From Oscillibacter sp. (GTDB lineage Bacteria; Bacillota; Clostridia; Oscillospirales; Oscillospiraceae), in assembly GCA_017547085.1 (NCBI GenBank), contig JAFYQM010000056.1, positions 1 through 64,000 on the forward strand: 64,000 nucleotides of DNA, in the 5' to 3' direction. Of this stretch, positions 18,593 to 39,016 are shown piece after piece. Under the pieces are notes generated by a model that saw nothing but the letters and a program-made list of their open reading frames with translations, ran no database searches and was not told where the DNA came from. Each line of letters begins with the position of its first letter. Position 1 is the stretch's first letter. The position numbers and the translations under genes are program-made.

Positions 18593-18636
18593 GCACCCAC
18601 CTCAAAAACTGCGTCGCATTAAACAAAGAATAGCGC
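18593..18636. repeat. Short direct repeat DR, copy 1
   Basis: CACCCACCTCAAAAA, then a C/T-variable CTGCG block and CGCATTAAACAAAGAATAG. Near-identical copies, in the same orientation, start at 19634 and 38944. No gene is linked to this copy. Confidence 0.75.
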
Positions 18637-19551: not shown

Positions 19552-19560
19552 TATAGAAAA

Positions 19561-19596
19561 ACAAGGATTCAATGCTCTGGGGCATTGAATCCTTGT
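19561..19596 (+). terminator. Intrinsic terminator of the DUF4298 gene
   Basis: Stem ACAAGGATTCAATG/CATTGAATCCTTGT then TCGTTT. Confidence 0.75.
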
Positions 19597-19633
19597 TCGT
19601 TTAACGGTCAATAAGCTCTCTGCCCAGCAACGA

Positions 19634-19676
19634 CACCCACCTCAAAAATTGGGGCGCATTAATCAAAGAATAGCGC
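19634..19676. repeat. Short direct repeat DR, copy 2
   Basis: CACCCACCTCAAAAATT, a GGGG-variant, then CGCATTAATCAAAGAATAGCG. It overlaps the 3' end of the TerB-like gene, supplying its last codons and stop (ALFFD). In copy 1 the same frame would read ALFFV and stop, so copy 1 may be the tail of a lost related gene. Confidence 0.75.
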
Positions 19677-21380
19677 TTCAGATAAGCCACTCTTAAGAAA
19701 CTCAAATTTCACATCATAGATGAAGTCAATATCACTGAATACACGTTTAAGCAGAGAAATCAATCCGCCAAAATCAATGTCCTGGTATTTTCCCAAAACA
19801 TATTCCCCGATAACACTGCTACTCGTAGCAATTGCATGGGAATAAAGCACTATCTTCTTTGTTTTGACTTTGTTCAACGCTTCATCTAGCCTTGCATTCT
19901 CTTCTAGCAACATGCACGCATGTAAAATTTCGATCAGCTTGTCAATAAAGTCCGCAAGCACCTCAGATGTTCCAATCTTTACAACGTCCCCGGTAGATAC
20001 GTATTGCGTTAGTTGCTCAACAACCTGTCGCTCCAAAATCAAATTAGCTCCTGGCAGCTGAATTCCAGCAGGTGTGTATGTATCTGTCGCGATGTGTATT
20101 AGCTGTTTAATCAACGCTGCTACCAAAGGCGTCGCATCTTCTTTTGATCGCTCGGCTACTTTTGACATCGCTACTGCCAGCTTGGCTTGTCCTGCAATCT
20201 TGGGGTTCTTAAAACGATCATCATAGACTACATGATTTGTTACAGGCACAAGACTTGTGCTCTGCGTGGTAGTAATCGTATTAGTTAGAATATTTGTAGT
20301 ACCAACAACTAATCCGATCAATGGATCATGTCCCAGCGTTGCAAATCGGTGATTCACACCCTTTGCTCCATTCACACCTTTAAACAAGTCCAGCTTTTCT
20401 CCTGCATACGCCGTGGCGTCATACGGAACCCCTTTAGTCGAGATGATCTCATTTAACGGAGCATAATAAGGCCTTGCCTTATCGTCATCCCCCTTGTTCA
20501 ACGCACCAAGAAGTTTTGCCTGTTGCTGATGCAGAAAGTTCTCTTTCTTTCCATGATTTGCTTTTTCAATTTCTGTCACTTGGTCAATCAAGAAGATCCG
20601 GACGCATTGAAGGCCAACCGCACTCATTAGAAGAGCAATTTCCTTTTCATTTAGTCTCGTTTTCCGCTTAAATGCCATATCAAGAAGTCGCATACGAACA
20701 GAAAACTCTTCTACCGCTTCCTGCACATCTTCCTGAGGCACAAAATCCGCAAAGAACTCCTCAACGCTGCCCTCTCGTTTATTTCGCTCGATGGCAACCT
20801 TTCGAGTGAAAGCTTTTTTCGTCAAAGCCTTTCCCCGCTCCAAAAGATAATTTTCGAATTCATCAATTGCAGCCCGTTCTCTATAGGAAATGCCGTTATT
20901 CGCCCTAGCAATGCTATATATGTCATCAGCAAATGTTGACAGCGCATCAACGTTAACAATATCAAGATATTTTTGGATATCATTGAAATTCAGATTTTCC
21001 ACGGCCGAAAGTTTTTCAATCTCTTTAATGGCAGCCCGAGGAAACTGTGGGTTTGCACTAACCCCTTTGATAATTGCATCTATCTGTTTTCGCTCAGATC
21101 GAGACACTTTCCCGTCAGACAGTGCAATAAATTGCGCCACAGCAACTTTTGCAACCAGAGGATCTACAAATGTAGTTCTAGCTTTCGTGCTACCAAGCTG
21201 AACCCCTTTTTTGATTCCTAGCTTATATATGTCGGCAGCCTTTTCTTGAAACTTTTTATCGTCCACTACAGCTTTAGCTGCATAACCAACTCCGGCGCCA
21301 ACCGCCACAGCTGCAACACCGCCAGCAACAGTTCCTGCGCTATCTGCAATCTTGTCGAATACATAGTTTGCAATGCCCAT
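19659..21380 (-). CDS. TerB-like domain protein, last gene of a candidate defence operon
   Basis: The 573-residue protein begins with a glycine/alanine-rich hydrophobic stretch (about residues 10-37, possibly one membrane segment). A TerB-like helical domain follows at about residues 70-190 (AQFIALSDGKVSRSERKQIDA and ANNGISYRERAAIDEFENYL). The middle carries a conserved-looking LGHDPLIGLVVGTTNILTNT segment (about residues 345-365), and the C-terminal half is helical without a known motif. It is the fifth gene of a compact operon, starting 3 bases after its neighbour with GGGGGATGA upstream. TerB domains occur in some defence systems (Shango has one), but this architecture is not one I recognise. 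Confidence 0.75.
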   Translation of the reverse strand: MGIANYVFDKIADSAGTVAGGVAAVAVGAGVGYAAKAVVDDKKFQEKAADIYKLGIKKGVQLGSTKARTTFVDPLVAKVAVAQFIALSDGKVSRSERKQIDAIIKGVSANPQFPRAAIKEIEKLSAVENLNFNDIQKYLDIVNVDALSTFADDIYSIARANNGISYRERAAIDEFENYLLERGKALTKKAFTRKVAIERNKREGSVEEFFADFVPQEDVQEAVEEFSVRMRLLDMAFKRKTRLNEKEIALLMSAVGLQCVRIFLIDQVTEIEKANHGKKENFLHQQQAKLLGALNKGDDDKARPYYAPLNEIISTKGVPYDATAYAGEKLDLFKGVNGAKGVNHRFATLGHDPLIGLVVGTTNILTNTITTTQSTSLVPVTNHVVYDDRFKNPKIAGQAKLAVAMSKVAERSKEDATPLVAALIKQLIHIATDTYTPAGIQLPGANLILERQVVEQLTQYVSTGDVVKIGTSEVLADFIDKLIEILHACMLLEENARLDEALNKVKTKKIVLYSHAIATSSSVIGEYVLGKYQDIDFGGLISLLKRVFSDIDFIYDVKFEFLKSGLSEALFFD

Positions 21381-21383
21381 GTC

Positions 21384-21866
21384 TCATCCCCCGTATCTTG
21401 GCTGTATTCTCTCTGATTCAGGGATACTCGCCGCAAGGATCCGAAGCTTAGCCAATGTTATTAGTCTCTGTCCGTTCTTCTGCAGTTTTCCAGCGCTATT
21501 CCAGACTACCGCTCCCGGGCCATTATATATCTCCTTCCATGCTCCGCGTTCAGTAATCTGCATTACGATCAGATAATCTGGCTCGCTTGAAATAGAAATT
21601 CTATTAATCTGTGTTGCTTTGATTTGAATGGATTTTCCGTCATCCGAAAGCGCGTCATGTGTTTCTGTAGAATTCGGAAGCAGTGTCAATCCATAATAAT
21701 CTGCAGCTAAAACCTCGCCAATGCTTCCTACCAAATGACCATCTGGGGTAAACTTTCTTCCAGGAAACTGATCCTCAAGTTCTCTTGTTATTTCATATAA
21801 TTCACGGATCTTTTCCACAATATCAAAACCCTTTTTGATCTCCATCACATCTACCACCCATGACAT
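21384..21866 (-). CDS. DUF6998/PD-(D/E)XK nuclease-like protein
   Basis: The protein of up to 160 residues has the block FPGRKFTPDGHLVGSIGEVLAA, then THDALSDDGKSIQIKATQ. The glutamate in GEVLAA, the aspartates of HDALSDD and the Q-I-K core (in place of E-x-K) fit a degenerate PD-(D/E)XK fold as in DUF6998 proteins. It may cut or only bind nucleic acid. The ATG at 21866 directly follows the upstream stop codon with no good ribosome site; ATG at 21845 after GGTGGTAGATG is a reasonable alternative. It is the fourth gene of the operon. Confidence 0.7.
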   Translation of the reverse strand: MSWVVDVMEIKKGFDIVEKIRELYEITRELEDQFPGRKFTPDGHLVGSIGEVLAADYYGLTLLPNSTETHDALSDDGKSIQIKATQINRISISSEPDYLIVMQITERGAWKEIYNGPGAVVWNSAGKLQKNGQRLITLAKLRILAASIPESERIQPRYGG

Positions 21867-22706
21867 TTATGTTTCAGATAACAACTCCGCGACATAGTCT
21901 ACGTAGGCAAGGGATGGGTTCAGCTTCACAAGGCCCCGCAAAAAGATCTGTGCCAGCTCACGGTTCAGCTCATACAGATATCCCATATTACCATTTCCGT
22001 CTTTATCAAACGGTGCGTATTTTACATTGCAGAGACGCAAAATATCAGTGGTGTAATGAGAAGTCTTAATCGGACGATCAAACACAATGTATTCGCAATC
22101 AACTCTACGCCCCTCTGTCTCCCACATATCCTCGGTTTGGAGCTCTTTCGGCTGATTGCACTCGTAGCATTTGCCACGAGCTATACTGATCGCCTGCACC
22201 TGTGCATTGCAGCCGTGCAAAATGATGTCACCAGGCTGCACATCAAGCAAACGTGTCCAATGGTGTGGAGCTCCACCATCTTTGCTGGCAATAGGTGCCC
22301 AAATATAACCACCCTTACTCTCCCGATCAAACGTACTTCCCTGAAACACGTAAAACGTCATTCTCTTTCCCGGTACTCGCTCATGCTTAACAACATTTTT
22401 CTTGGGAATATGTCCAGCGTACTTGGCAGATAAGGCCGCTTTCTTTTCTTCTTCCAACCGCTGTTTTGCCAATGCCTCTTCCTCTGCCTTTTGCTGCGCT
22501 GCTATCCGTGCATCTTCGAACTCTTTAAGAACCAATGCTTGTACAGCTACATCTTCGGCAGACAAAAATTTCGTAAAAGTAGCCTCATTATATTGGAATT
22601 TACTTGTTTTGCTTGAAAATTCAATCGTCAAAATATCCTTTTCCTGGACAAGAATTACTCCAGTGCCAAGCATTTTGTGTCTAATCTTTTCACCAACAAG
22701 ATTCAT
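21867..22706 (-). CDS. EVE/PUA-like modified-base reader with N-terminal SH3-like domain
   Basis: The 279-residue protein opens with a small beta-barrel (GEKIRHKMLGTGVILVQ...LTIEFSSKTSKFQY, residues 1-55), followed by a charged coiled coil (about 60-95). Its C-terminal half resembles EVE/PUA-superfamily readers: MTFYVFQGSTFDRES, GGYIWAPIASKDGG, HHWTRLLDVQPGDIILHG, SIARGKCYECNQP. Such domains bind flipped or modified bases and often accompany restriction enzymes. It lies third in the operon, 12 bases after the helicase. The role as a sensor of modified phage DNA is inferred. Confidence 0.7.
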   Translation of the reverse strand: MNLVGEKIRHKMLGTGVILVQEKDILTIEFSSKTSKFQYNEATFTKFLSAEDVAVQALVLKEFEDARIAAQQKAEEEALAKQRLEEEKKAALSAKYAGHIPKKNVVKHERVPGKRMTFYVFQGSTFDRESKGGYIWAPIASKDGGAPHHWTRLLDVQPGDIILHGCNAQVQAISIARGKCYECNQPKELQTEDMWETEGRRVDCEYIVFDRPIKTSHYTTDILRLCNVKYAPFDKDGNGNMGYLYELNRELAQIFLRGLVKLNPSLAYVDYVAELLSET

Positions 22707-22718
22707 GAGAAGCCTCCC

Positions 22719-24596
22719 TCATCCATGGTACTCCACGGTTTTAATCCCCGACTCCAGCAAAACAGCATACACAGGATCCATCTCCTCAACAGGAGGAACA
22801 TAAATCACAAATCCATCGCGCCCTCTGGTAAGAAGAACACGATAGCTATTCTTGCGATAGGTATTCACGTCACTATTTTCCGCTTCTGCTTTCTTAAACT
22901 TTGTCCACTGCGCTCCATCCCAAAGCATGTCGTTATCCCAACCGATCAATGGCATGTCGATCTCCAAACCCTGACAACTAAATTCTGTTGCGACCGTGTC
23001 CAATGCGCAGCAAGATTTCGGATGATCAGCTTCTGCATTAAACCACTTACCAACATAAAAAATGCCAAGTGCTCCCTGGAAGCTATTGTCCATTCCCCAG
23101 TGTCGGAGGAGTCTGCCCTTCGAAGAGGCAATCATACCAAATCGCTTCGTCGGCTCATTGCGATACCGTTCTCTGAGATAGCGTTTTGCATGGTTTAAAT
23201 CCCGAGTAACATACATACCAAAGCCTTGCTTCAAAATCCCGTCAGATAAAGATTTCGCAGCAACAATATCTCCATCAACCAGTGCGTTTGCGAACTTGCT
23301 GACATCACCAGCAAGATGCGTCCGCAAAGACATCGAAAGATTAAGTGCAGACCGGTTTTTATTCTCAATGATGCTCTTCCCAGAAAATACGTTTACCAAC
23401 TTATCCGGACAGATAATCTCCCAGTCGATGTCCGACTTACTGATGGCGGTATCCCACTGAACAATACCGGAGTTCTCTCCATTATGAATCTCTTGGCCTT
23501 CGCCAACGAGGACCAGCAGCACACACCAATCTAATCGTTTCTCGCAGAGCTCAATCATAATATCAGGCTCAGACTTATTGGTGTGGCGTTTTGCAGCCAT
23601 CTGCTGTGCATCCCATGCACGCTGTCCTTCGTCAAACACAACGACATTATTATGAAAGTCAGGAGCTCCGTTGCTAAGATACTGGTTCACAACTTTGTGC
23701 AGATCCTTTACGAACACCGAGCTGTGAAGGGCTTGCGTCAAAACCGACACCAAAGGCCCGTTTCCAGATAGATATACGGAGTTTACATGTTCAGACGACT
23801 TGCAGATATCATAAACATATTTGAGGCCCAAGAACGTCTTACCCGCTCCCGGCACGCCAGTAACAAAGGCAACCACGTGTTTCTTCTGCTCTTCAGCATA
23901 AGTACTAATCTCCGTCAGGCACTCAATCGCCTGGGGAATACAAGTACTGTTGACCCGGCGAATATTCGGCAGTTCTTCTTGTTTAACAAAAAGCTTTGCT
24001 GCCTCAACAATGGTGGGCAGCGGCTCATACTTAGAATTAAGCCACTGATTGATATCAGTTCTTGTATTCTGTTCTTCCAATTCTCGAATAATTGCACTTG
24101 CTAAAGTTGGCCGTGGTGCAATGGTTACCCCAGTAGTCACATCTATATCGGCAGCACTTTCATCTGCATGCGTGAGAACCAGAATCGCAGACACTTTACT
24201 ATTGCGAGACTCATAATGATACTCATGAATATCTCTTGCATAGGCAGCCGCCTGGTCAATATCTGCATGAATGACCCTAAAGTTCTGTTTGAACTCCAGC
24301 ACAATAACCTGCTCCTTACTAATCAATAGCACGTCAGGGCGCCGGCCAGATTCATAGGGTAAACAATACTCAAACACAATATCAAAGTTCGGATGTGTCT
24401 TTGCGATCTCCGGTAATTGCTCCACTAAAACGTCGAAGCAGTCCTTCCACGCCCGAATCTGAGATTCTCCTAGAGGCATCTCAATCATTGTCGTGAAGGA
24501 AGTTTTCATCTTTTCAATCCATTCGGATTTATCTTCAGCCAAAAACTCACCAATGCTGCTCGAATAGCAACAATACATGTGTTTTGCATGCTCCAT
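22719..24596 (-). CDS. DUF2075-type nuclease-helicase
   Basis: The 625-residue protein fuses a PD-(D/E)XK nuclease-like domain (GRRPDVLLISKE then VIVLEFKQ, about residues 84-104) to a superfamily 1-like helicase. Walker A is GVPGAGKT at about residue 247, Walker B VVVFDEGQRAW at about 315, a sensor-like LVLVGEGQEIH at about 350, and the last motif is RVLLTRGRDGFVIYVP near residue 600. It should act on DNA or RNA with ATP hydrolysis. It is the second gene of the operon, starting 43 bases after the XRE regulator. It is probably the effector of the candidate defence system. Confidence 0.85.
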   Translation of the reverse strand: MEHAKHMYCCYSSSIGEFLAEDKSEWIEKMKTSFTTMIEMPLGESQIRAWKDCFDVLVEQLPEIAKTHPNFDIVFEYCLPYESGRRPDVLLISKEQVIVLEFKQNFRVIHADIDQAAAYARDIHEYHYESRNSKVSAILVLTHADESAADIDVTTGVTIAPRPTLASAIIRELEEQNTRTDINQWLNSKYEPLPTIVEAAKLFVKQEELPNIRRVNSTCIPQAIECLTEISTYAEEQKKHVVAFVTGVPGAGKTFLGLKYVYDICKSSEHVNSVYLSGNGPLVSVLTQALHSSVFVKDLHKVVNQYLSNGAPDFHNNVVVFDEGQRAWDAQQMAAKRHTNKSEPDIMIELCEKRLDWCVLLVLVGEGQEIHNGENSGIVQWDTAISKSDIDWEIICPDKLVNVFSGKSIIENKNRSALNLSMSLRTHLAGDVSKFANALVDGDIVAAKSLSDGILKQGFGMYVTRDLNHAKRYLRERYRNEPTKRFGMIASSKGRLLRHWGMDNSFQGALGIFYVGKWFNAEADHPKSCCALDTVATEFSCQGLEIDMPLIGWDNDMLWDGAQWTKFKKAEAENSDVNTYRKNSYRVLLTRGRDGFVIYVPPVEEMDPVYAVLLESGIKTVEYHG

Positions 24597-24639
24597 GTTC
24601 GGCTCTCCTTTGTCAAATTAGCATCAGCGTATCTGATCT

Positions 24640-24882
24640 TTATTGAATCTCTTGCTCTAGCCCCTCAAACAATGGACTATCAAAGAATTCTTTCACGCTA
24701 ATATCTAATCCATCACAGAGCTTTTTGATGGACACAACACCAGGATTCTTGCTCTTCTCATTCAGCATACTGTAAATAGTGGACGGCGAAACTCCCGATA
24801 CAGTTGCCAATGCATTGACCGCCATATTACGCTCTTCACACAACTCCAAGATACGTCTTGCAACAGCTTCTTTTGTATTCAT
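24640..24882 (-). CDS. XRE-family regulator of the candidate defence operon
   Basis: The 80-residue protein is a single Cro/CI helix-turn-helix: ARRILELCEERNMAVNALATV, then SGVSPSTIYSMLNEKSKNPG and a C-terminal ISVKEFFDSPLF. The start at 24882 follows GAGGAGGCATGCCC; the longer frame to 24909 has no ribosome site. It heads the five-gene operon. Two palindromes lie 29-75 bases upstream, so it probably represses its own operon. Confidence 0.85.
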   Translation of the reverse strand: MNTKEAVARRILELCEERNMAVNALATVSGVSPSTIYSMLNEKSKNPGVVSIKKLCDGLDISVKEFFDSPLFEGLEQEIQ

Positions 24883-24910
24883 GGGCATGCCTCCTCTGCG
24901 ATATATCATA

Positions 24911-24957
24911 ATTCAAGTGTACTTGAATCTACGATAAATCGCGTGGGATATATCCCA
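24911..24957 (-). promoter_or_regulatory. Two palindromic operators upstream of the five-gene operon
   Basis: ATTCAAGT-GT-ACTTGAAT (24911-24928) and TGGGATATATCCCA (24944-24957). The first has the form of XRE-family operators and overlaps a possible TATGAT -10 element. Confidence 0.6.
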
Positions 24958-25496: not shown

Positions 25497-28400
25497 TCAT
25501 GCTACATTAGGATAGCGAGTGTAGACATATTCATAGATTCGCTGGCGGTATCTAGAAATGCTCGGTTCATCGTAGCATTCCGGTAGTTCATTCCACAAGG
25601 TATCCCGGATCAAATTATCAATAGTGGCCTTGGTTTCCTGCTTATCAGTCCAGTGGTCAAGCTCCGCAATTTTAGTTTTGACTTTCTGGAGGAGATCAAC
25701 CGCCACCTGCTTAATTTTCTGAATGTCCTGTTTGGACAGATTTTCAGAAAACAGCATGTCGTAAAGGGACAATTCTTCATCGCTAGAGAAGCCCTCTCGA
25801 ACATATCTCTGCTCTTCCTGGTCCATATCTCTGACCAGCTGCATTAGTTCATCGAAGGTTTTCTCAATCGTGGCTCTGTCCTGCTGGCTATTGTAATCCT
25901 CAATGATTTCCTGATACCGTTCGTGATATTTGATGCGGTCAGGGTTGTTGAACAGCATAGCATCAAGGCGGACACGAATGAGGTCCTCAAGATCCTTTAT
26001 CACCAGGTTCTTTTTCTTTGCTTTTGCAAATTCACGTCGAAGTAAATCGAAATCAATTTGGCTAATGTCAAACCGTCTAGACGGTGTTATTCCCTCTGCG
26101 GCCTGCTCGATTTGAACGTACTCGCTGATAATGTTGTTGATCTCCACCATCAGGTCAACATTGGACACTGTCTTGCGCTTCTTCTGCAGCTCACCATAGA
26201 TGGCGGCAATTGCCTCATACTGCTTTCGGACATCCAACTCAATATCTTCCCGGTTGGTATACTTCATCAGGCGAATGAGCTCAGAGGCATAGGTTTGGAA
26301 TGTTTTCTTTTCCTCGATAGTGGAGGATACCGCATTCGCCGCAGTCTGCAGCAGTGCCAGTTTCTCAAAATCTCGGGCATTGATCAGTGCGCGCAAATCG
26401 AAGCCGTATCCATCCAGAAACGCCTCTGCTGCGGCGATGGTTTCCAGAATCCGGGCAATCAGCTTGTCCTTATCGACGGTAGGATCGGAACCGCCGTTTC
26501 CGGTGACATTAGCTGTATAGTCGGCCAGAGCTTTCCGCAAAGCCTTGACGATGCCGATATAATCGACGATCAGACCGTTGCTTTTGCCCTCGGCCACACG
26601 GTTGGCACGGGCAATCGTCTGCATCAGAGTATGAGCCTTCAAGGGCTTGTCCAGATACAGGCAGGACAGGCACTTCACATCAAAGCCGGTGAGCCACATG
26701 GCACAGACAAAGACGACGCGAAGCGGGTTGTTCTTGTCCTTAAACTCCTTGTCTAGTTCCCGCTTTTCCATCTTTGTCCGGTGTGTCTTAATATCCAAAT
26801 CCCATTTCCTGAAGGTTTGAATCTCATTCTGCTCTTGGCTGATAACCACGGCCATTTCCGTTTCCTGCATCCATTGTAGTTTGCGTTCCAGTTCTTGCGC
26901 TTCCTGCTGAGTGGCGTGTCTGATTTGAGTCTTCAACGCCTCCATTTCAGCCACCCAATATCTCTGCACCAGATCATACATCCGAACGCAGGTCACTTTG
27001 TTCAGGCAAACGAACATAGCCTTGCCGCTGGTCCACAGGTCAGAATAATGCCCAACAAAATCGCGGGCAATGGACTCCAGACGGGGAGCTGCGGTCAACA
27101 GGTGGATTTCTTTGGCGAATTCTGCTTCCAACTTGTCCTGTTGGTCAACATCCAAATCCGCCTGCTCAATGGCATCCAGAATCCGGTCTGTGAGTTCTGG
27201 ATTGTCCTTGACATCCAGAATTTTCTCGCCACGGTTTTCATAGTACAGTGGCACCGTCGCGCCGTCATCCACGGCTCGCTTGAAGTCGTACACGGATATG
27301 TAGCCACCGAAGGTACGCTCGGTAATATTGTCGCTGGACAGCAGCGGAGTTCCGGTAAAGCCGATACGGGCTGCAGTGGGCAATAGGCGAACCATGTTAT
27401 CCGCAAAGATGCCGTACTGGCTGCGATGGGCCTCGTCCGACATGATGATGATGTCGTGGTCGGGATAAATCGGCTCAACATCGGTCTTATTGAACTTCTG
27501 AATCAGCGTAAAGATGAAGCTGGGGTTGCCTCTCAGTTTGTCAATTAGATCCGATCCGCTGGAGGCGATGAACTGGCTGGCTTTTGTTTTGCCAAGAATA
27601 CCGCAGTTCTCGAAGGTGTCGCTGATTTGGGCATTCAGTTCGTCACGATCAGTCAGAATAACGATGGTAGGAGAGCCGGAGAACTTGCGGCGGATCTTTT
27701 GAGCCAGAAATACCATGGAGTAGCTTTTGCCACTGCCTTGAGTATGCCAGAAAACGCCCAGCTTGCCGTTGTTCAGTTTCCGAGCCTCATATGCCTTGAC
27801 CGCCTCATTGACACCAAGATACTGGTGGTTTCTGGTCAGTATCTTTGCCGTGTGTCCGCCAGAATGGTCAAAAAGGATGAAGTTTTCCAACAAATCCAGG
27901 AAGTTTTCCTTTTTGCAAATGCCGCGTAGCATCGTTTCCAGAGCCACACTGCCCTGCTCCTGCTCAGACAGGCGCTTCCACTCATGGAAAAACTCATATT
28001 TGCTGCCCAGCGTACCGACTTTTGCTTCCGTTCCGTTGGAAAGGATCAGGAAAGCGTTGTAGTAAAACAAATGGGGAATGGTATCCTGATAGTCGGTGTA
28101 ATTGTTGGTGTAGGCATCCTGCACATCCACTGTATTCTTTTTAAGTTCGATGAACAGCAGAGGAATTCCATTAACAAAGCCTACGATATCCGTACGGCGA
28201 CGGTACAGATCGCCGTGAATCTTCAGTTCCTTGATGGCGAGGAAATGATTCTTGGTAGGATCGGTAAAGTCAATGACGGCGGCGTGCTTAGTTTCCGTTT
28301 TGCCGCCGGGCTTCTTCACAGTGACCGGGATACCATCACGAATCAGGAAATACTTCTCCTCGTTGATCTGCAGCAAAGATGAGGTAGACAGGCGATGTTC

Positions 28401-28637
28401 CAAAATGCGCTGGGCCTCATCCAGCTGAGCAGAGGTAATCCATGGATTTAGGCGCAGCAGAGCCTCCCGAAAATACCGGGTCAGCAGGATCTCCTTATAG
28501 CTTTTACGGCCAAATGTACCGTTGTCTCCTAACTGTTCGGTGTTGTAGGCAAAAGCTACATCCCAGCCAAGCTCATTATGGAGCAGATGACCGGCACTTT
28601 CCTGTACAAGTATGTTTTCAGAATAATCGTAGCTCAT
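25497..28637 (-). CDS. hsdR: Type I restriction endonuclease subunit R
   Basis: The 1046-residue protein is full length for HsdR. The N-terminal nuclease domain shows FLAIKELKIHG and RRTDIVGFVNGIPLLFIELKK (PD...ExK, about residues 125-175). The DEAD-type motor follows: HTQGSGKS (Walker A, about 295), IIIMSDEAHRSQYG (about 395), and GFTGTPL. A helical C-terminal domain binds the methylase core. It cuts DNA far from unmethylated target sites after ATP-driven translocation. The start at 28637 follows TAGGAGGCGAC. It is separated from hsdS by about 5 kb of cargo genes, which is unusual. Confidence 0.95.
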   Translation of the reverse strand: MSYDYSENILVQESAGHLLHNELGWDVAFAYNTEQLGDNGTFGRKSYKEILLTRYFREALLRLNPWITSAQLDEAQRILEHRLSTSSLLQINEEKYFLIRDGIPVTVKKPGGKTETKHAAVIDFTDPTKNHFLAIKELKIHGDLYRRRTDIVGFVNGIPLLFIELKKNTVDVQDAYTNNYTDYQDTIPHLFYYNAFLILSNGTEAKVGTLGSKYEFFHEWKRLSEQEQGSVALETMLRGICKKENFLDLLENFILFDHSGGHTAKILTRNHQYLGVNEAVKAYEARKLNNGKLGVFWHTQGSGKSYSMVFLAQKIRRKFSGSPTIVILTDRDELNAQISDTFENCGILGKTKASQFIASSGSDLIDKLRGNPSFIFTLIQKFNKTDVEPIYPDHDIIIMSDEAHRSQYGIFADNMVRLLPTAARIGFTGTPLLSSDNITERTFGGYISVYDFKRAVDDGATVPLYYENRGEKILDVKDNPELTDRILDAIEQADLDVDQQDKLEAEFAKEIHLLTAAPRLESIARDFVGHYSDLWTSGKAMFVCLNKVTCVRMYDLVQRYWVAEMEALKTQIRHATQQEAQELERKLQWMQETEMAVVISQEQNEIQTFRKWDLDIKTHRTKMEKRELDKEFKDKNNPLRVVFVCAMWLTGFDVKCLSCLYLDKPLKAHTLMQTIARANRVAEGKSNGLIVDYIGIVKALRKALADYTANVTGNGGSDPTVDKDKLIARILETIAAAEAFLDGYGFDLRALINARDFEKLALLQTAANAVSSTIEEKKTFQTYASELIRLMKYTNREDIELDVRKQYEAIAAIYGELQKKRKTVSNVDLMVEINNIISEYVQIEQAAEGITPSRRFDISQIDFDLLRREFAKAKKKNLVIKDLEDLIRVRLDAMLFNNPDRIKYHERYQEIIEDYNSQQDRATIEKTFDELMQLVRDMDQEEQRYVREGFSSDEELSLYDMLFSENLSKQDIQKIKQVAVDLLQKVKTKIAELDHWTDKQETKATIDNLIRDTLWNELPECYDEPSISRYRQRIYEYVYTRYPNVA

Positions 28638-28648
28638 GTTGTCGCCTC

Positions 28649-29413
28649 CTATCGGCTGTACCATGATAATTCGCAAAAGCGGTCCATGCCATTGTGCCTA
28701 TTGGGTGGCACATGGTTTCTTAGGCAGTATTCCAAATAATTATCAAAACAGTTTAGACAAAGCTCTTTGATAAAGCAGGTTGGAAAAAGCAATTTCCATA
28801 CTTCATCACTGACGATTCCGGTTTTGGTAACATATTGTCTGGAACAGTTGATGTAATACGGTTCATGCGCGTTTTGTTTTAACGACATATGCGGGGCAGA
28901 AAACTCATGCGACAGGCGACAGCGCACACGGTATAGCAAATCAATATATCGATGTTCAGTTGCTTTTTTGTTTGCGTACTCTTCGCCTTTTGCTTCGGTT
29001 ATTATCTCTTTCAGCGTATCAGTCTTTTTTCGAATAATGTCAGATTTCGGATAATATATGCCGCCATCTTCCAAGTCGGCCAAACCGACTGTCGCAGATA
29101 CCATATCCTCCTCTCGGTAATAGAGCGTAATCGGGTCTGTTAGTTCGAGAAAATCATATCTGTTCTGGAATTCGAGTACGAATTTAGTAAATGTACCCTG
29201 AAGACTTTTGGTTGGAAAATCATAATATTCCTGCGCCATCATCTCAATTATTGAAAAATACGTTAAAAGTTTGATTTCTTTGACCTCTGTTTTTTCGACC
29301 TCGTCCATCGCCCTGCAAATCCATTCGCGCCACGAGTTCACAGAGTATTCAACATAATCAAAAGTTTTGTCTTCTAGCAGAATTCCTATGTCCCAAACCC
29401 TATTATCAGACAC
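28649..29413 (-). CDS. HEPN-like protein in the restriction operon cargo
   Basis: The 254-residue helical protein has no classical enzyme motif, but residues around 170-180 read LLYRVRCRLSHEF, fitting the R-x4-H signature of HEPN ribonuclease-like domains after a long helix. The start is GTG at 29413, supported by GAGGTG five bases upstream; that GAGGTG is itself part of a degenerate copy of the hsdS tail. The gene ends 11 bases before hsdR. An RNase or abortive-infection role is inferred from the motif and context only. Confidence 0.55.
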   Translation of the reverse strand: MSDNRVWDIGILLEDKTFDYVEYSVNSWREWICRAMDEVEKTEVKEIKLLTYFSIIEMMAQEYYDFPTKSLQGTFTKFVLEFQNRYDFLELTDPITLYYREEDMVSATVGLADLEDGGIYYPKSDIIRKKTDTLKEIITEAKGEEYANKKATEHRYIDLLYRVRCRLSHEFSAPHMSLKQNAHEPYYINCSRQYVTKTGIVSDEVWKLLFPTCFIKELCLNCFDNYLEYCLRNHVPPNRHNGMDRFCELSWYSR

Positions 29414-29418
29414 ATTTA

Positions 29419-29441
29419 CACCTCAATTTCTTTACTCGTCG
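29419..29441 (-). repeat. hsdS-tail repeat, degenerate copy
   Basis: CACCTCAATTTCTTTACTCG resembles the last bases of hsdS at 33776-33799 (about 17 of 23 positions by eye). On the minus strand it provides the GAGGTG ribosome site of the next gene. Confidence 0.45.
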
Positions 29442-29521
29442 ACCCAGGAAAAAAGACAATCAATGCTCCCAGCATGTTTTTTCGAAATAGGCATAAGTCA
29501 TTACACAGTCGCCCAAATCGG

Positions 29522-30955
29522 CTAATTGATAATCTTAATAAACTTCCAGTATTTTAAAATGTATTCCTGTAAAGTTATATTGCCAACCGCTACAGTTTTA
29601 GGAAATCTATCTGTCCAGATATCTCCTTCGAATCCAAGGATCTTCCTATAGCATCCGAGGAGAAGCCCCCAAAGATCTTTAACATAGATATACGTTCTAT
29701 TGTTGTTTATACCGTGAGACATGTAATTTGCGTCGTCTTCTATGGGCTTGTACTTATCACTCAGTATTGCTAAACCAGGTAAGACTTTAGATGTCGAGGA
29801 AAAAATGTTATTCTGGGGGCTCGTTTCTGATGTGAAGATTCCATAAATATTAAAGTTGTTTTTAGCAACGGCAACATTTAAATCATATTCCTTCAACAAG
29901 GAAAGAAATATTTCAACACACAAAACTGCTGCATCATATTTTTCACCCGTCGGGTTGAGCAGGCGATGGCACAGAAAACTTTTCTCTATAATTGCTTTAC
30001 AGGTTCGAATATCCACGCCCTTTAAAAGCGTGGTGCAGATAACATCAATCTCCGAATTTGACGATATGTCGTATGTGAAATTGTCGTAATATTGCTTATA
30101 TACTTCTTTGACTTCGTTAGTCACTTCTCCAGTAACTAACTTCAACTCAAAATCTATAAACTTTGCGAGATAACGCCGAACGCTTACTTTTTCTCCATAG
30201 ATACCTTTGATCGTATTTTCAAGCTGCCGCTTATCTACTGCTAGCACTACTTGGACATTGGGAATAGTGTCAAAAATATGATGTAGGCGTTCTAAGACCT
30301 TAATGGTATATTCCGGCAAACAGCGGTCAAGTTCATCAACAACTAAAATAACAGTTTGATCCTTCGCAAGATTCTCTATTGTTTCAGATAACTTCTCCAG
30401 CGTTTTCTTAAAATCAAAATATGAATCATAACTATGGTTTTTTGCAATTTGTTCTGTGGCCGATTCATTGCCTGTCTTCATGATTTCTGCGATTTCTTCG
30501 AGATCAACACCGGTTTGTTCCTCAATAACTGCACATGCTTTTCCCCACATACTGATTCCAATTGCTTTCAATGTGGCAATAAATAGATCCTTCTTGTCGC
30601 CTGGAATCAATAGGACTTGCTCATCAATTTGATCTAAGATTGCGGCAACAATAGCAATTAACGGTTCTTCATAGTAATCATATTGCCAGCAATTATAATG
30701 AAACACGAGATATTTGCTAAGAGTGGTATTTTCCTTTCCATAAGAACGGATTTTCTTCTCAAATGCTTCCAAAACATACGTTTTTCCGACACCCCACTCG
30801 CCGTTAATCGCATAGCAAGCATTTCCGTTATTTGCAGACAATGACTCAGCAATATCAACTAATTGCTCAATAAAATCTTGTCGATTCAGCAAATCAATAT
30901 TAACAGCACTCTCTGCGGCATCTGTGACAAGGAAGTCCCCCTTTGTTGCTAACAT
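29522..30955 (-). CDS. KAP-family P-loop NTPase
   Basis: The 477-residue protein has the KAP pattern: NRQDFIEQL at the N-terminus, Walker A INGEWGVGKT at about residue 50, YNCWQYDYYEEPL (about 90) and Walker B VILVVDELDRCLPEY (about 205). A helical C-terminal half follows with no transmembrane segments. KAP NTPases are signalling or scaffold ATPases at membranes and are frequent in phage-defence loci. The start at 30955 follows GGGGGGC; a longer frame to 31108 overlaps the upstream gene without support. Its upstream neighbour is a two-pass membrane protein that may anchor it. Confidence 0.85.
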   Translation of the reverse strand: MLATKGDFLVTDAAESAVNIDLLNRQDFIEQLVDIAESLSANNGNACYAINGEWGVGKTYVLEAFEKKIRSYGKENTTLSKYLVFHYNCWQYDYYEEPLIAIVAAILDQIDEQVLLIPGDKKDLFIATLKAIGISMWGKACAVIEEQTGVDLEEIAEIMKTGNESATEQIAKNHSYDSYFDFKKTLEKLSETIENLAKDQTVILVVDELDRCLPEYTIKVLERLHHIFDTIPNVQVVLAVDKRQLENTIKGIYGEKVSVRRYLAKFIDFELKLVTGEVTNEVKEVYKQYYDNFTYDISSNSEIDVICTTLLKGVDIRTCKAIIEKSFLCHRLLNPTGEKYDAAVLCVEIFLSLLKEYDLNVAVAKNNFNIYGIFTSETSPQNNIFSSTSKVLPGLAILSDKYKPIEDDANYMSHGINNNRTYIYVKDLWGLLLGCYRKILGFEGDIWTDRFPKTVAVGNITLQEYILKYWKFIKIIN

Positions 30956-30999
30956 ATTTGCCCCCCGATTTTTCTGTGTATTTGAATTAAGACTACAGC

Positions 31000-31764
31000 T
31001 TATAAAGCGTTCTGCCGCTTTCTGCCAAAACGAACAAAGTATATATTCTTTTGCATTTCTGTTACATAGGCTGATAAACGGCCCATAAGTTCCATTTCTT
31101 GTTGCCATAGCGACAAATACATCTTATCGTAATCATCAAACTTTCCGACAACCTTTTGGCTATAATCCAGAGCAATCATCTTTTCAAAACCTTCAATCTT
31201 ACGTTCATGTTCATCCAAGATCTTTAGGTCGCAGTGCAGCGGTTTATAATCCAAACGATCTGCATCCAAAACTTGGCGATATAGGCCGAGCAGCACTTTG
31301 TGAGTCAGATAAACTTTCATACTAAAAATCCTGTAGTTTTCCAGAATGGGAAGTTTGCTGTTATCTTCGACAAAACGACGCTTGTCTTTTTTTAGTTCCC
31401 GTTCCTCCCAATAAAGTTTATTAAATGCGATTTCCAGCGAATGTACGACGCGGGTCAGTTCCGGGGTCATGTGGTCATAATAACTCAGGTTCTTTTCTTT
31501 GGCATTTGTAAAGAGGAGAAGTACAAAACTTGCGATTAAACCAGCCGCAACATTTCCAAACATGTTGGATACCCAGCTGTGTTGCTCTACAAGCAAAAAA
31601 GATACAAAGAGCGCAAAAATAGTTCCTCCCCCGAGGACTACATACCAAATCCAAAAACGAAATTTTGGAGGCGTTGTATCCAATATGTTAGCGCGACAGA
31701 ACGTTTCTGCTTTGCCTAACACATCATCTCTCCAATCCACCATTACTTGATCATGGTAGTCCAT
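31000..31764 (-). CDS. Two-pass membrane protein, restriction operon cargo
   Basis: The 254-residue protein has two close hydrophobic segments at about residues 33-58 and 63-85 (FWIWYVVLGGGTIFALFVSF and NVAAGLIASFVLLLF). A long cytoplasmic helical domain rich in lysine and glutamate follows. The start at 31764 follows GAGGTGAAAAAT; ATG at 31791 would add a MSGEIEV leader copied from the end of hsdS. It ends 44 bases before the KAP NTPase and could form a membrane complex with it. No family is recognised. Confidence 0.65.
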   Translation of the reverse strand: MDYHDQVMVDWRDDVLGKAETFCRANILDTTPPKFRFWIWYVVLGGGTIFALFVSFLLVEQHSWVSNMFGNVAAGLIASFVLLLFTNAKEKNLSYYDHMTPELTRVVHSLEIAFNKLYWEERELKKDKRRFVEDNSKLPILENYRIFSMKVYLTHKVLLGLYRQVLDADRLDYKPLHCDLKILDEHERKIEGFEKMIALDYSQKVVGKFDDYDKMYLSLWQQEMELMGRLSAYVTEMQKNIYFVRFGRKRQNAL

Positions 31765-31770
31765 ATTTTT

Positions 31771-31794
31771 CACCTCGATTTCCCCGCTCATCGG
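31771..31794 (-). repeat. hsdS-tail repeat, near-perfect copy
   Basis: CACCTCGATTTCCCCGCTCA plus TCGG matches the true hsdS end (33776-33799) at about 22 of 24 positions. It encodes MSGEIEV without the stop codon and carries the GAGGTG ribosome site. Confidence 0.7.
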
Positions 31795-31825
31795 TTTTGA
31801 AAACCTAGCATTCTCTCTGAGTTGG

Positions 31826-32386
31826 TTATCGTTTCCCTCGCTCTTTGCGAGTAAAAACATAGTCGTTGGCTTTTTGATCATAGTGAGATGACATTCCCAC
31901 TATATCGTCTGATGCAACATAGTCCATATATGTAATCCACCCTTCTAGTGGAATCCGATAAAGAATTTTGTTCCGGTCAAAGTCAGATGTTACGCTAAAA
32001 CTGTCAATCACATTGTCTTCGTCGAATACACCAAAGAACATATAGGAGTGTATAAGCCAATTACACACGTTCTTTCCTGCAACAACAATTTCTTTCTCAT
32101 TTTCCCAGTCATGACTATCTTCTTCCGGCCATCGATGGAGCTGGTCAACTGGCTTAAGCGGCTGAACAGAAAATGCTCTCAATGAGTAGTTTTCAGCTTC
32201 ATCACTCAGTTTCCCTCCACAATCGATCAGTTTGCGAATAATGAAAGCAGAATAGAAAATAGCCTTTTCGATAACGGTATATGTAGTATCATCATTTCTT
32301 TGAAAATGCTCAGCCGTATTGTATTTGATAATTAAATTCTTACGTCTGCGCAGATCTTGTTTCCACGGAAAACTTTCAAAAATCAT
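31826..32386 (-). CDS. Uncharacterised protein, restriction operon cargo
   Basis: The 186-residue soluble protein has an N-terminal helical region with an EKAIFYSAFIIRKLIDCGGKLSDEA segment, followed by a beta-rich half (WLIHSYMFFGVFDEDN, ILYRIPLEGWITYMDYVASDD). The start at 32386 follows GAGGTGTCATC. Its last codons overlap the extended N-terminus of the membrane protein gene but not the preferred start at 31764. No family or catalytic motif is recognised. AT-rich codon use marks it as accessory. Confidence 0.6.
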   Translation of the reverse strand: MIFESFPWKQDLRRRKNLIIKYNTAEHFQRNDDTTYTVIEKAIFYSAFIIRKLIDCGGKLSDEAENYSLRAFSVQPLKPVDQLHRWPEEDSHDWENEKEIVVAGKNVCNWLIHSYMFFGVFDEDNVIDSFSVTSDFDRNKILYRIPLEGWITYMDYVASDDIVGMSSHYDQKANDYVFTRKERGKR

Positions 32387-32407
32387 GATGACACCTCAAA
32401 GCATTTG

Positions 32408-33493
32408 CTAAATCAGATCCGGTATGTTGGGGCTACAGCGCTTGGCGTTTGTGTGCGCCAGTATCTGCCCCACACGGGTAATCTGGAATGCATTTGGTAT
32501 ACGCTCCCACCATAGCCGCACTTCCCGCAGAGATTCATACCCATCCCATAAATTCATAAAGTTAGCTATAGATTGTTGCTGCAAATTGGAATCCTTTGAG
32601 TATAGTTTCCAAACTTGTTTGATAGCATCTTTTTGATTGTCTGCTAAAGGTATTCTAAACGGACCAACATTCGCAGCCAAATCGTCTATCGAGGCTTCGT
32701 TTCTGATTTTTAGGCGCACATAACCCTCTAAGCACTCATTTGGTACAAGGAAATTTCCGTTAATCTGAACATTTCCCAATATTTCAACCGCTTTTGTATA
32801 ATCATCAGAACCCATCTTGATTCCGACACACGCATAACCGTTTAATTGAGGAGCATAATATTCAGAAAACGACTTCATACTTCCCAACATCGAAACGCGC
32901 ATAGCGCCCAAAACATCAAGATGATCAAGCCATGCTGTTCCAACAGGCAATTCTTGATACATCAGCTGAGAGAAAAGCGAATCAAGTACTTGTAAGCCTT
33001 CCATGCAATCACCAGAAATAGGAAGAAAATTGGTCACTGCATGGGCAACCGTTAATGCACACAATGCATCATTATCGATTTGATCCACAATTTCGATTGC
33101 TTGGTTAATGCCTGCACGGTTTTTGCGGTCGGAACCTTTTTGGACATGGCAGACAAGCAATTCTGAAAGCAATGCGTAATCGTCTTCTCTCTCTGTTGCC
33201 GCCGCAGCCTGTTGCGCTTTTCGGAGCAGAATTTGGAATGCAGGATCAGCGAAAGCCTGAAGTAGTCCGTCTACCTTATCAAGTTTGGGCCAAACATTAT
33301 CTTCCAGTCTTTCAATCCTCTGATTTGCCGTTACATATGCATCACTTGTGTATGCTTGCAACGCAGTAGGAATCATCTCAGAAAAAATTGCCCTAACACG
33401 TTCTTCTGTTACGCCTTGATTGATAATGATTGTCCCGGCTTGATATTGCTGTGAGTTTTCGCCAGCCTTTTGAATCTGTTTGCTATCTTCCAT
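32408..33493 (-). CDS. LPO_1073/Vpar_1526-like protein
   Basis: The 361-residue protein begins with a motif shared by many defence-associated proteins, QIQKAGENSQQYQAGTIII, then GVTEERVRAIFSEMIP and a helical body with ARRF-like repeats. It resembles the LPO_1073/Vpar_1526 family (function unknown). The start at 33493 follows GGGAGAATTAACG; longer frames into 33604 were rejected. It overlaps the end of the small membrane protein gene by 11 bases, and that protein's C-terminus carries the same KAG-NS-Q-Q motif, so the two are likely partners. Confidence 0.65.
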   Translation of the reverse strand: MEDSKQIQKAGENSQQYQAGTIIINQGVTEERVRAIFSEMIPTALQAYTSDAYVTANQRIERLEDNVWPKLDKVDGLLQAFADPAFQILLRKAQQAAAATEREDDYALLSELLVCHVQKGSDRKNRAGINQAIEIVDQIDNDALCALTVAHAVTNFLPISGDCMEGLQVLDSLFSQLMYQELPVGTAWLDHLDVLGAMRVSMLGSMKSFSEYYAPQLNGYACVGIKMGSDDYTKAVEILGNVQINGNFLVPNECLEGYVRLKIRNEASIDDLAANVGPFRIPLADNQKDAIKQVWKLYSKDSNLQQQSIANFMNLWDGYESLREVRLWWERIPNAFQITRVGQILAHTNAKRCSPNIPDLI

Positions 33494-33767
33494 CGTTAAT
33501 TCTCCCGATTTGCACCTGCTCGGAATTCTTACCAGCCTTTTGAACTTGTCTAATGTTGTTTTGCACATTGCTATTGCCCCCAGCTGCTGCATTGTCATCA
33601 ACAATCAATTCTTGTCGTTGCTTGGCTCCGCTTTTGGCTTTTTGTGTTTGCTTTCCACTTTTCTTAACTCCGACTTTATATCCGGCCAATCCACCAGCGA
33701 TTGCACCAATAGCTAAACTTAAAAGCTCAGTTCCAATACCATCAAAAATCCACTGTAAGTTTTCCAT
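33483..33767 (-). CDS. Small membrane-anchored protein with KAGxNSxQxQ tail
   Basis: The 94-residue protein has one hydrophobic segment (LLSLAIGAIAGGLAGYKVGV, about residues 15-34), a basic linker (KKSGKQTQKAKSGAKQR), and a C-terminus reading QVQKAGKNSEQVQIGRI. That tail matches the N-terminus of the next protein. The start at 33767 is six bases after the hsdS stop codon and uses GAGGTG from the hsdS end as its ribosome site. It may tether the LPO_1073-like protein to the membrane. No family is recognised. Confidence 0.6.
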   Translation of the reverse strand: MENLQWIFDGIGTELLSLAIGAIAGGLAGYKVGVKKSGKQTQKAKSGAKQRQELIVDDNAAAGGNSNVQNNIRQVQKAGKNSEQVQIGRINDGR

Positions 33768-33772
33768 AGTAA

Positions 33773-35008
33773 TTACACCTCGATTTCTCCGCTCATCAGT
33801 TTGGGGAGCAGACGGTCACGGGCTTCAGTAGAAATGTCACATTGTTTTTGCAACGCCTCAATTCTGGTTATAATCGGTGCTACTTGTTGATGATACTGCG
33901 CAACAATCTCATCACAAGGAATTAACATTTCAATTCCCATCATTGCTTCAGGTTTTAAGTGCAAAACATTTACACCATTGGCCAAAGGCGAAATTTGCTT
34001 ACTTAGCCCACCATAGTATAGTGTGGAATATACGAACAGCTTGTCCGTCATCTTCGGAATGATTTTAATCAAATCCATGGAGAAAGTCATTTCTTCGCCC
34101 ATATCTGGCACAAGCGCAACATGACCTACCAAACGACGCTCTTGAGTCATATCTGTAACTCCCATGACGATATCACCGGCAGTTAAGTTTTGATTATCCT
34201 TAAACTTTCCGGTGAAACGCTTTTCTGCATTGCGATTGTACCCACCGAAAGCACGAATGTTTTTGAGATTAGCCATCAGCACTCCAGTCGTATCTGACAA
34301 CTCTTTAGATGTATAAGATTTTCCCCGGACAAAATCAAAGACTTCGGAAAGAGATCTATTGCTCCACCCCTTCGGGATACCATCGGTGATGTGGGTGGTT
34401 TCGTGGCCGGGGAAGCGCAGATCCACAAACCACTCTTTATACAGCCGCTGCGCCGCTTCCTCCAACAGCTTGATCTGCTTCTGGTTGTTTTCAATCAGGT
34501 CATCATAGGCAGAAAGGGTATCTACAATTTTCTGCTGTTCTTCAATGAATGGTATCTCAATCGGGACACTACTCAAAATGGAAGTGTTCAAATTGAGCAT
34601 TGTCGCACCAACAGCGTGCTTTTCTACCCAACCAACTGTTTCAGCCTTTTGCAGTTGATAAAACACGAATTTAGGAATAACTTTGCTTTTATCTACCGTG
34701 ACACGCAGACACCCTGTACCACACAGCCACCCCTGCTCCACGTCTGTGGCAAAGGCACAGCGACCCACATCGCCTCTACGAGAATAGAGAATGTCTCCAA
34801 CTTCAATTTTGTGGCGGCTGAGTCTGCTAACATGGTCCTCAGATACCCGCGCAATAGATACTTCAGAAATATGACCGTTTACCAAATCTTTGGGCATTAC
34901 GACTGGGGTGCCTTCTCCCGAATAATCAGACTGATGAAGTTGAGAGCCAAATGGGCCCGTTTGAATATTGGACGAAATCTCACCCAATGTAACCTTGTTC
35001 CAACTCAT
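33773..35008 (-). CDS. hsdS: Type I restriction specificity subunit S
   Basis: The 411-residue protein has two target recognition domains. The first spans about residues 5-165 and ends in the conserved helix IPFIEEQQKIVDTLSAYDDLIE. The second spans about 215-375 and ends with a matching helix and RLLPKLMSGEIEV. It determines the bipartite DNA target of the methylase and nuclease. The start overlaps the hsdM stop by four bases (ATGA). Its last 24 bases recur twice downstream at cargo junctions. Confidence 0.93.
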   Translation of the reverse strand: MSWNKVTLGEISSNIQTGPFGSQLHQSDYSGEGTPVVMPKDLVNGHISEVSIARVSEDHVSRLSRHKIEVGDILYSRRGDVGRCAFATDVEQGWLCGTGCLRVTVDKSKVIPKFVFYQLQKAETVGWVEKHAVGATMLNLNTSILSSVPIEIPFIEEQQKIVDTLSAYDDLIENNQKQIKLLEEAAQRLYKEWFVDLRFPGHETTHITDGIPKGWSNRSLSEVFDFVRGKSYTSKELSDTTGVLMANLKNIRAFGGYNRNAEKRFTGKFKDNQNLTAGDIVMGVTDMTQERRLVGHVALVPDMGEEMTFSMDLIKIIPKMTDKLFVYSTLYYGGLSKQISPLANGVNVLHLKPEAMMGIEMLIPCDEIVAQYHQQVAPIITRIEALQKQCDISTEARDRLLPKLMSGEIEV

Positions 35009-36825: not shown

Positions 36826-37036
36826 GACTAGTCTCCTCCGGTAAGAACTCCATAATATCTCCAATGTTCACTTCCAGCGTAGAACAAATTTTATGTAGCA
36901 CCGTAAGTGTCACTTCCTCATCTCGGCGCAAGCGAGTCATAGTATTCGGAGCAATACCAGCCGCTCTACGCAGATCAGCCTTGCTCATTTTTTTATCCAC
37001 GAGAAGTTTCCAGAGTTTGTTATATGAAATAGCCAT
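36818..37036 (-). CDS. XRE-family regulator of the type I restriction operon
   Basis: The 72-residue protein matches the small YozG-like Cro/CI regulators: YNKLWKLLVDKKMSKADLRRAAGI, then APNTMTRLRRDEEVTLTVL and VNIGDIMEF. It begins the operon and its end overlaps the hsdM start, so the two are translationally coupled. A perfect inverted repeat with 22-base arms lies about 50 bases upstream and may be its operator. It probably delays or balances methylase and nuclease expression. Confidence 0.85.
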   Translation of the reverse strand: MAISYNKLWKLLVDKKMSKADLRRAAGIAPNTMTRLRRDEEVTLTVLHKICSTLEVNIGDIMEFLPEETSRD

Positions 37037-38943: not shown

Positions 38944-38980
38944 CACCCACCTCAAAAATTGCGTCGCATTAGACAAAGAT
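38944..38980. repeat. Short direct repeat DR, copy 3
   Basis: CACCCACCTCAAAAATTGCG then TCGCATTAGACAAAGATA, the best match to copy 1. With copy 2 (19634) it brackets the 19.3-kb defence module. No gene overlaps it. Confidence 0.75.
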
Positions 38981-39016
38981 AAGGGGCATCGCCAACGAAA
39001 GGCGATGCCCCTATTT
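38981..39016 (+). terminator. Strong hairpin after DR copy 3
   Basis: Stem AGGGGCATCGCC/GGCGATGCCCCT followed by ATTTTG. Confidence 0.65.

Follow-up and report, generated by a model that had tools for sequence, protein, structure and literature searches.

A five-gene operon on the minus strand (g1 to g5), which together with its promoter region fills positions 19659–24957 of a 64,000-nucleotide stretch of Oscillibacter sp. (contig JAFYQM010000056.1; hereafter the window), is likely, on balance, to encode a type IV-like restriction system of several components that acts on modified DNA and uses a helicase–nuclease as its effector. Behind an XRE-family regulator (g1), the operon combines a nuclease–helicase fusion (g2) with a predicted reader of modified bases (g3); a second predicted nuclease (g4) and a protein with a TerB-like region (g5) follow, and these two are less certain as parts of the system. 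Agreement between the pocket residues of the reader, the nuclease residues, the partners found beside homologs and the genomic surroundings makes modification-dependent restriction the best reading of the sequence data. The layout had been outlined in a first-pass annotation of the window: its coordinates and the gaps of 43, 12, 0 and 3 bases between the genes are borne out by a check of the open reading frames (ORFs), and the two palindromes that it placed 5′ of the operon were both located within the putative operator/promoter region (24911–24957, minus strand), TGGGATATATCCCA at 24944–24957 and ATTCAAGT..ACTTGAAT at 24911–24928. A hairpin that comes after the gene preceding the operon is also located 5′ of g1.

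The predicted reader g3 and the helicase–nuclease g2

Gene g3 (21867–22706, minus strand) encodes a Tudor-like segment (residues 1–50), a coiled coil (53–96) and an EVE domain (about 115–260). The latter had been proposed from the letters alone and is recovered by profile search and structure comparison, though neither Pfam nor NCBIfam registers an EVE match. The nearest solved structure to this domain is VcaM4I, an endonuclease dependent on 5-methylcytosine (5mC) or 5-hydroxymethylcytosine (5hmC), whose modified-base pocket consists, in the excerpted account of PMC7897488, of T11, E15, W22 (via its carbonyl), P24, W82 and Y130. These residues correspond to g3 T125, E129, W136, P138, W195 and Y243: all six positions are kept, five being identical in 30 of 30 aligned rows and position 125 being Thr in 27 and Ser in three.

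Relatives of the g3 EVE domain are found in proteins with a variety of partners, including an HNH fusion in Priestia and a NO VEIN fusion in Lactiplantibacillus. In Deinococcus, the fusion is to an AAA protein paired with a DUF2357/PDDEXK_7 gene; the McrB-like protein there carries the g3-like stretch (residues 500–643) beside a second, Pfam-recognised EVE domain (653–788). As a separate observation, an EVE-HNH gene of Rhizobium phaseoli (L116, 3525–4911) is followed directly by a gene for a very-short-patch repair endonuclease, an arrangement that fits a 5mC theme.

Gene g2 (22719–24596, minus strand; 625 amino acids) encodes a PD-(D/E)XK nuclease, with a core of the QxxxY type (Q115, Y119), fused to a Schlafen-group-3/DUF2075 superfamily 1 (SF1) helicase (PF09848, 2e-63), as the first-pass annotation had read it. 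D88, E101, K103, Q115 and Y119, the Walker A sequence GVPGAGKT and the DEGQ motif are invariant or nearly so among 26 sequences, and the nuclease residues D88/E101/K103 of g2 are intact. Over residues 9–608, nearly its whole length, the protein matches the PADLOC model PDC-S41 (2e-140), which carries no description and which we take to be a single-protein candidate with no assigned mechanism. Of the combination, which the first-pass annotation did not recognise as a named system, g2 was already flagged under that model; what distinguishes g2 here is its tie to exchangeable readers.

The g2 family numbers 5,015 homologs among 7,994 scored candidates. In 57 of the 120 homologs listed, no extension reaches 30 residues; the others carry a small domain without a name (47), a domain that we read as a winged helix (12), an SRA-like domain (three) or a short tail (one). 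Homologs adjoin genes annotated as McrC and AAA ATPase in Exiguobacterium, and HNH genes at loci L084 and L100.

The predicted reader linked to g2 is exchangeable: besides EVE, an SRA-like domain can take its place on the adaptor or be fused onto g2 itself. At L085, on a viral contig, and at L069, the g3-type N-terminal adaptor bears an SRA-like domain in place of EVE (PF02182 at 1.7e-6 and 1.2e-4; 28 and 22 bits, where the curated cut-off is 30.7); these Tudor + SRA-like proteins are 70% identical, and their gene lies directly before g2 in L085 and directly before a MutT gene in L069. A related domain (1e-13 to 2e-14) is fused N-terminally to the g2 homologs P0295, P0296 and P0312, the three counted among the 120 above. 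When the five SRA-like segments are pooled, two match SAD_SRA and the other three AspBHI_N (0.0034 at best), a domain from the N-terminus of a restriction endonuclease; AspBHI is 5mC-dependent. By adjacency or fusion to EVE or SRA-like domains, g2 is therefore repeatedly coupled to putative modified-base readers. The Tudor-like adaptor of g3 is also joined to other C-terminal parts across the class, which possibly represent a set of further readers.

Regulation, recurrent core and proposed mechanism

Gene g1 (24640–24882, minus strand) matches HTH_26 (6e-10) and HTH_3 (3e-7) in Pfam. Its ORF is readable from 24909, and the real start is best placed at ATG 24882, giving 80 amino acids, because the homolog at L083 begins MNVKEAV at the same point as MNTKEAV in the window. 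In L083, which belongs to a genome of another family, this homolog (E 7e-39) lies directly before g2 at a spacing of 11 bases. The two g1 promoters have GATATATCCCAC[G/A]CGAT in common and align with a score of 22, against a maximum of 14 in 500 mononucleotide shuffles; the 11-mer GATATATCCCA was found only 5′ of g1, in the window and L083, across the window and 150 loci (1,295,259 bases, a total that includes duplicate fetches, the occurrences in L072 and L076 being the same two places). The set is thus probably self-regulated by g1.

A smaller core recurs: the XRE gene and g2 behind an operator common to both places, and g2 paired with a reader. Three-gene versions are g1, g2 and MutT in L083, and a partial EVE ORF, g2 and MutT in a row in L002; the MutT partner is absent from the window. 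Linkage of g2 to g3 also emerges from the sizes of the contigs on which their homologs in the protein database lie, of which nine are in common (own contig included), against a mean of 0.45 and a maximum of 2 in 120 shifted controls. This test took in the 120 listed matches each of g2 (of 5,015), g3 (of 330) and g5 (of 449), leaving out sizes under 2,500; one g2 value was wrong (3307 omitted, 5406 doubled), which affects no observed match.

MutT-type genes are themselves concentrated near this core. In the 244,750 bp no more than 2.5 kb away from readers or g2 there are 13, against one in 852,934 bp elsewhere; the count leaves out the loci of the window itself, the shorter member wherever a place was duplicated, and the loci L118–L121 obtained by a NUDIX search. 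They stand beside 13 of 40 kept reader or g2 loci (L001, L002, L003, L039, L054, L057, L066, L069, L083, L100, L101, L108 and L113), among which two pairs are related, L054/L108 (both from Priestia) and L057/L101; recounting them as 11 of 12 gives a P of about 6e-7. The MutT profile derives from eight genes that had been found next to readers or g2, which biases the count in favour of their subfamily. The association extends to a MutT domain fused to g3 (P0108, L039) and to an HNH-NUDIX gene directly before g2 (L100). Compared with NCBIfam, six of the MutT genes have the pyrimidine (deoxy)nucleoside triphosphate diphosphatase as first match in two cases and as second or third in four; in the Protein Data Bank (PDB), the MutT gene of L083 matches a CTP pyrophosphohydrolase (2rrk, 1.8e-22), nearly tied with MutT (3hhj, 4.1e-22). 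MutT homologs adjoining SauUSI had already been noted (PMC7641849, Fig. 9 legend).

We infer a pathway in which g3 would flip out the 5mC or 5hmC of incoming DNA, its Tudor/coiled-coil adaptor would recruit or license g2, and g2, once loaded, would translocate at the expense of ATP and cut. Of the remaining products, g4 could cut modified sites directly or make an entry break for g2, g5 is probably an accessory effector or regulator that need not belong to the core, and g1 would bind the GATATATCCCA operator and hold expression low. Only tentatively do we extend this to a wider proposal, a new class of modification-dependent immunity in which exchangeable EVE or SRA-like readers of 5mC/5hmC, carried by one type of Tudor/coiled-coil adaptor or joined directly to the motor, would steer a Schlafen-type helicase–nuclease onto modified phage DNA, and a MutT/NudG-type hydrolase in many lineages would clear 5-modified dCTPs and spare the host DNA, joining immunity to the policing of the nucleotide pool; the MutT enzyme could, in this scheme, keep such dCTPs out of host DNA.

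Extent of the system and alternative readings

Several observations weigh against modification-dependent restriction by the five genes together. The intercalating Q128 of VcaM4I is replaced by Met in 30 of 30 g3 rows, so the specificity of g3 may differ. The SRA-like assignment is weak when taken alone, its PF02182 match (6e-7) lying under the Pfam cut-off and the best AspBHI_N match reaching the 0.0034 given above, and the domain has no significant PDB match. None of the six MutT genes reaches the cut-off of the pyrimidine enzyme, and two pass that of MutT (8-oxo-dGTP diphosphatase); no NUDIX match occurs on the window's contig, with six NUDIX places elsewhere in the host assembly. The absence of a PF00145 match from the host assembly (83% complete) speaks for the restriction reading, but avoidance of C5-cytosine methylases is suggestive only: the contrast between two of ten carriers and eight of 20 controls over the cut-off is not significant (Fisher P 0.42), with controls that come mostly from the host's order and are unmatched by lineage, and of which ten of 20 have a match when counted by E-value.

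Distribution weighs in the same direction, as the exact five-gene set was not found in any other genome examined. Among 391 genomes of the same class, g2 was matched in seven, EVE-type g3 in four, DUF6998 in two and g5 in 11 (over its full length only in the host), and the host is the sole genome where two or more of g2, EVE-type g3, g4 and full-length g5 coincide. The g3 profile itself matched 41 of these genomes, 37 of which are not counted as g3 because the match covers mainly or only the N-terminal part. Searching with the EVE domain alone matched five of 398 genomes phylum-wide, and the g3 alignment gave seven loci among named genomes, of which L002 includes g2; in L002, L004 and L005 the EVE ORF is incomplete. 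In the contig-size test, which covered g2, g3 and g5, g2 and g5 had one size in common against 0.82 expected, and g3 and g5 none against 0.42; neither g4 nor g5 was seen linked to g2 or g3 beyond the window. A conserved five-gene system is accordingly rejected, its components occurring apart in the same-class genomes, and a conserved co-occurrence of at least three of the genes in other genomes, whose absence the first-pass annotation had named as a refutation, was not seen for the full set. Its idea of one self-regulated set around a modified-base reader and nucleases is backed by the reader pocket, the residues of the nucleases and the operator common to both promoters, and survives, but not as a conserved unit of five genes.

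The strongest rival explanation concerns the extent of the system, not its kind: the restriction unit would consist of g1–g3 only, with g4 as a BisI-like solitary nuclease and g5 as a stray Bunzi-like protein, both separate neighbours at the island end. We give this possibility slightly less than even weight. It is favoured by the recurrence elsewhere of g1–g2 and g2–reader pairs, when g4 and g5 are not seen beside g2 or g3 outside the window, and by the location of g5 at a repeat; against it stand the tight packing of g3, g4 and g5, with gaps of 0 and 3 bases, and the likeness of g4 to a 5mC-dependent enzyme, which fits the theme of g3.

That likeness rests on the following comparison. Gene g4 (21384–21866, minus strand) belongs to DUF6998, as had been suggested (PF22522, 4e-53), and its best PDB match is Eco15I (6e-4 with the single sequence, 3.5e-5 with a six-row profile). 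Changing E49, D69, Q79 or K81 of Eco15I abolishes activity (PMC11347163, in excerpt; the PDB chain is numbered 5 lower), and g4 E51, D71, Q81 and K83 align to these residues with no gaps between them. The E-D-QxK catalytic set at equal spacing thus relates g4 to the BisI family (Eco15I, NhoI), whose enzymes depend on 5mC in GCNGC, and g4 is predicted to resemble this group of 5mC-dependent endonucleases; it differs in that DUF6998 is its own Pfam family and that the (H/R)(V/I/T/M) methyl-contact motif lies outside the g4–Eco15I alignment. This alignment stops short of an Arg-Ile near the C-terminus of g4, which is not conserved in all six rows. Viral contigs often encode DUF6998 proteins (29 loci, L122–L150), and g4 may therefore be a stray phage nuclease, a further point against its membership. 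Four plasmid relatives lie in differing contexts, annotated without g2 or g3, as the g1–g3 rival would have it. On a Roseomonas plasmid (L096, 4085–8411), a DUF6998 relative directly precedes a type ISP restriction/modification gene.

Two other roles are less likely than restriction. A function of the core in repair or nucleotide quality, in which EVE would read oxidised or damaged cytosines, g2 process the DNA and MutT clean the pool, is improbable. The enrichment of MutT-type hydrolases beside readers and g2, the two of six that pass the 8-oxo-dGTP diphosphatase cut-off and the very-short-patch repair gene adjoining one EVE-HNH gene (L116) are consistent with such a role; yet the patchy distribution (g2 in 7 and EVE-type g3 in 4 of 391 genomes), the presence of an integrase and a type I restriction–modification system in the same stretch and the HNH nuclease fusions found in this EVE family point to defence, and MutT homologs are in print beside SauUSI (PMC7641849, figure legend).

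The other role, abortive infection of the Bunzi or Shango kind, concerns g5 (19659–21380, minus strand), whose product has a hydrophobic, Gly/Ala-rich N-terminus by hydropathy, a TerB-like region (residues 79–179) and a BnzB-like C-terminal half. Shango consists of a TerB protein with SngB and SngC. The TerB-like label of the first-pass annotation is only partly retained: a PF05099 match is seen at E 0.0058, below the cut-off, and PADLOC BnzB matches better (1.8e-25, 88 bits, residues 303–529, or 227 of 573 residues). The likening to Shango has to be replaced, since the closest TerB system by profile is Bunzi; no Shango model was among the PADLOC matches of g1–g5, in a library whose Shango models are unconfirmed. 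TerB is common to both systems according to a table in PMC10952713. Filing the operon as Bunzi is nevertheless rejected, because the comparison with one real BnzB is weak (61 columns aligned, 11% probability) and a PADLOC scan of g1–g5, the two genes before them and ten other ORFs in or around the stretch gave no BnzA, with a model that recovers it in L052.

The C-terminal half of g5 also matches shorter relatives of about 400 amino acids, which come after WYL regulators on the Lactococcus plasmids pNP40, a phage-resistance plasmid, and pLLI11B, and in E. eligens; they lie next to BnzA-BnzB, to a dynamin-like protein or to a protein bearing an EF-Tu D3 domain. On pLLI11B (L052, 4935–11355), a WYL regulator, a hypothetical gene and the short g5-like protein precede BnzA and BnzB, an extra BnzB-like protein thus adjoining a complete Bunzi; on pNP40 (L051, 5956–9543), a WYL regulator, the g5-like protein and the EF-Tu D3 protein occur together. 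An abortive-infection role, with g5 as main effector and g2–g4 as sensors of phage DNA, draws on the BnzB match of g5, its hydrophobic N-terminus and these short relatives beside BnzA-BnzB (pLLI11B), beside the dynamin-like protein (E. eligens) and on pNP40, but is unlikely in view of the missing BnzA and the short alignment to real BnzB. Partners also differ between this operon and either Bunzi or Shango.

The surroundings are in keeping with modification-dependent restriction. Copies of a 43-nucleotide direct repeat lie at 18594–18636, 19634–19676 and 38944–38986, the latter two 91% and 86% identical to the first; they likely bound an integrated island some 19 kb long, and another, short segment lies between copies one and two. 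As the first-pass annotation had it, the operon ends at this repeat, the copy at 19634–19676 (minus strand) spanning the final codons of g5 and likely marking the island end, and the copy at 38944 (minus strand) comes after a tyrosine integrase gene (37726–38889). Between the outer copies lie the operon and type I hsdM (35005–36864), hsdS (33773–35008) and hsdR (25497–28676), the hsdM-hsdS pair being separated from hsdR, within 25497–36864, by a KAP NTPase gene (29522–31108; PADLOC PDC-S20, 1e-120) and several unassigned ORFs. We read this as a restriction-rich, integrase-bounded island. A terminator-like stem of 17 pairs lies 3′ of g5 (19559–19598, minus strand), in a region where such sites occur at chance level (five found, 5.2 in shuffles). 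Longer direct repeats at 14217–14396/18999–19178 (84% identical) and 14044–14157/46871–46984 (76%) are near tRNA genes at 14.4–14.8 kb and 47.0 kb.

Implications and relation to known systems

If the proposal is true, the role of the widespread g2 family (PDC-S41) would be explained as that of a cutting motor in reader-guided restriction, a new type of motor for modification-dependent restriction besides McrB and the stand-alone enzymes; DUF6998 would gain a predicted BisI-like function, and the new 5mC/5hmC-binding proteins could serve as reagents. A testable link would also be drawn between the restriction of modified DNA and the clean-up of modified nucleotides.

Reader-guided restriction is already known from VcaM4I, McrBC, CoCoNuTs and SWI2/SNF2-EVE systems; the combination of a Schlafen-type motor, a reader swap on one adaptor and a MutT link was not found described together in the parts of the open-access literature consulted. 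With VcaM4I and other EVE-HNH endonucleases, the operon has in common an EVE domain whose pocket residues match those that hold a flipped 5mC or 5hmC. In g3, however, domain scans found no HNH match, the predicted reader stands apart as a protein of its own that bears a Tudor/coiled-coil adaptor, the intercalating Gln is exchanged for Met, and cutting is assigned by prediction to g2 and g4. The systems that join a SWI2/SNF2 helicase–nuclease to EVE, a methylase and DUF499 (PMC7641849, in part) likewise place an EVE protein with a helicase–nuclease; they differ in using another helicase superfamily, and the operon here lacks DUF499 and, by domain scans of g1–g5, a methylase match, type I hsdM lying 10 kb away. 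Like the type IV systems McrBC and CoCoNuT, finally, the operon would unite a reader, an NTP-dependent motor and a PD-(D/E)XK nuclease; Pfam and PADLOC give no McrB or McrC match in g1–g5, and the motor is instead a Schlafen-group-3 SF1 helicase fused to its nuclease.

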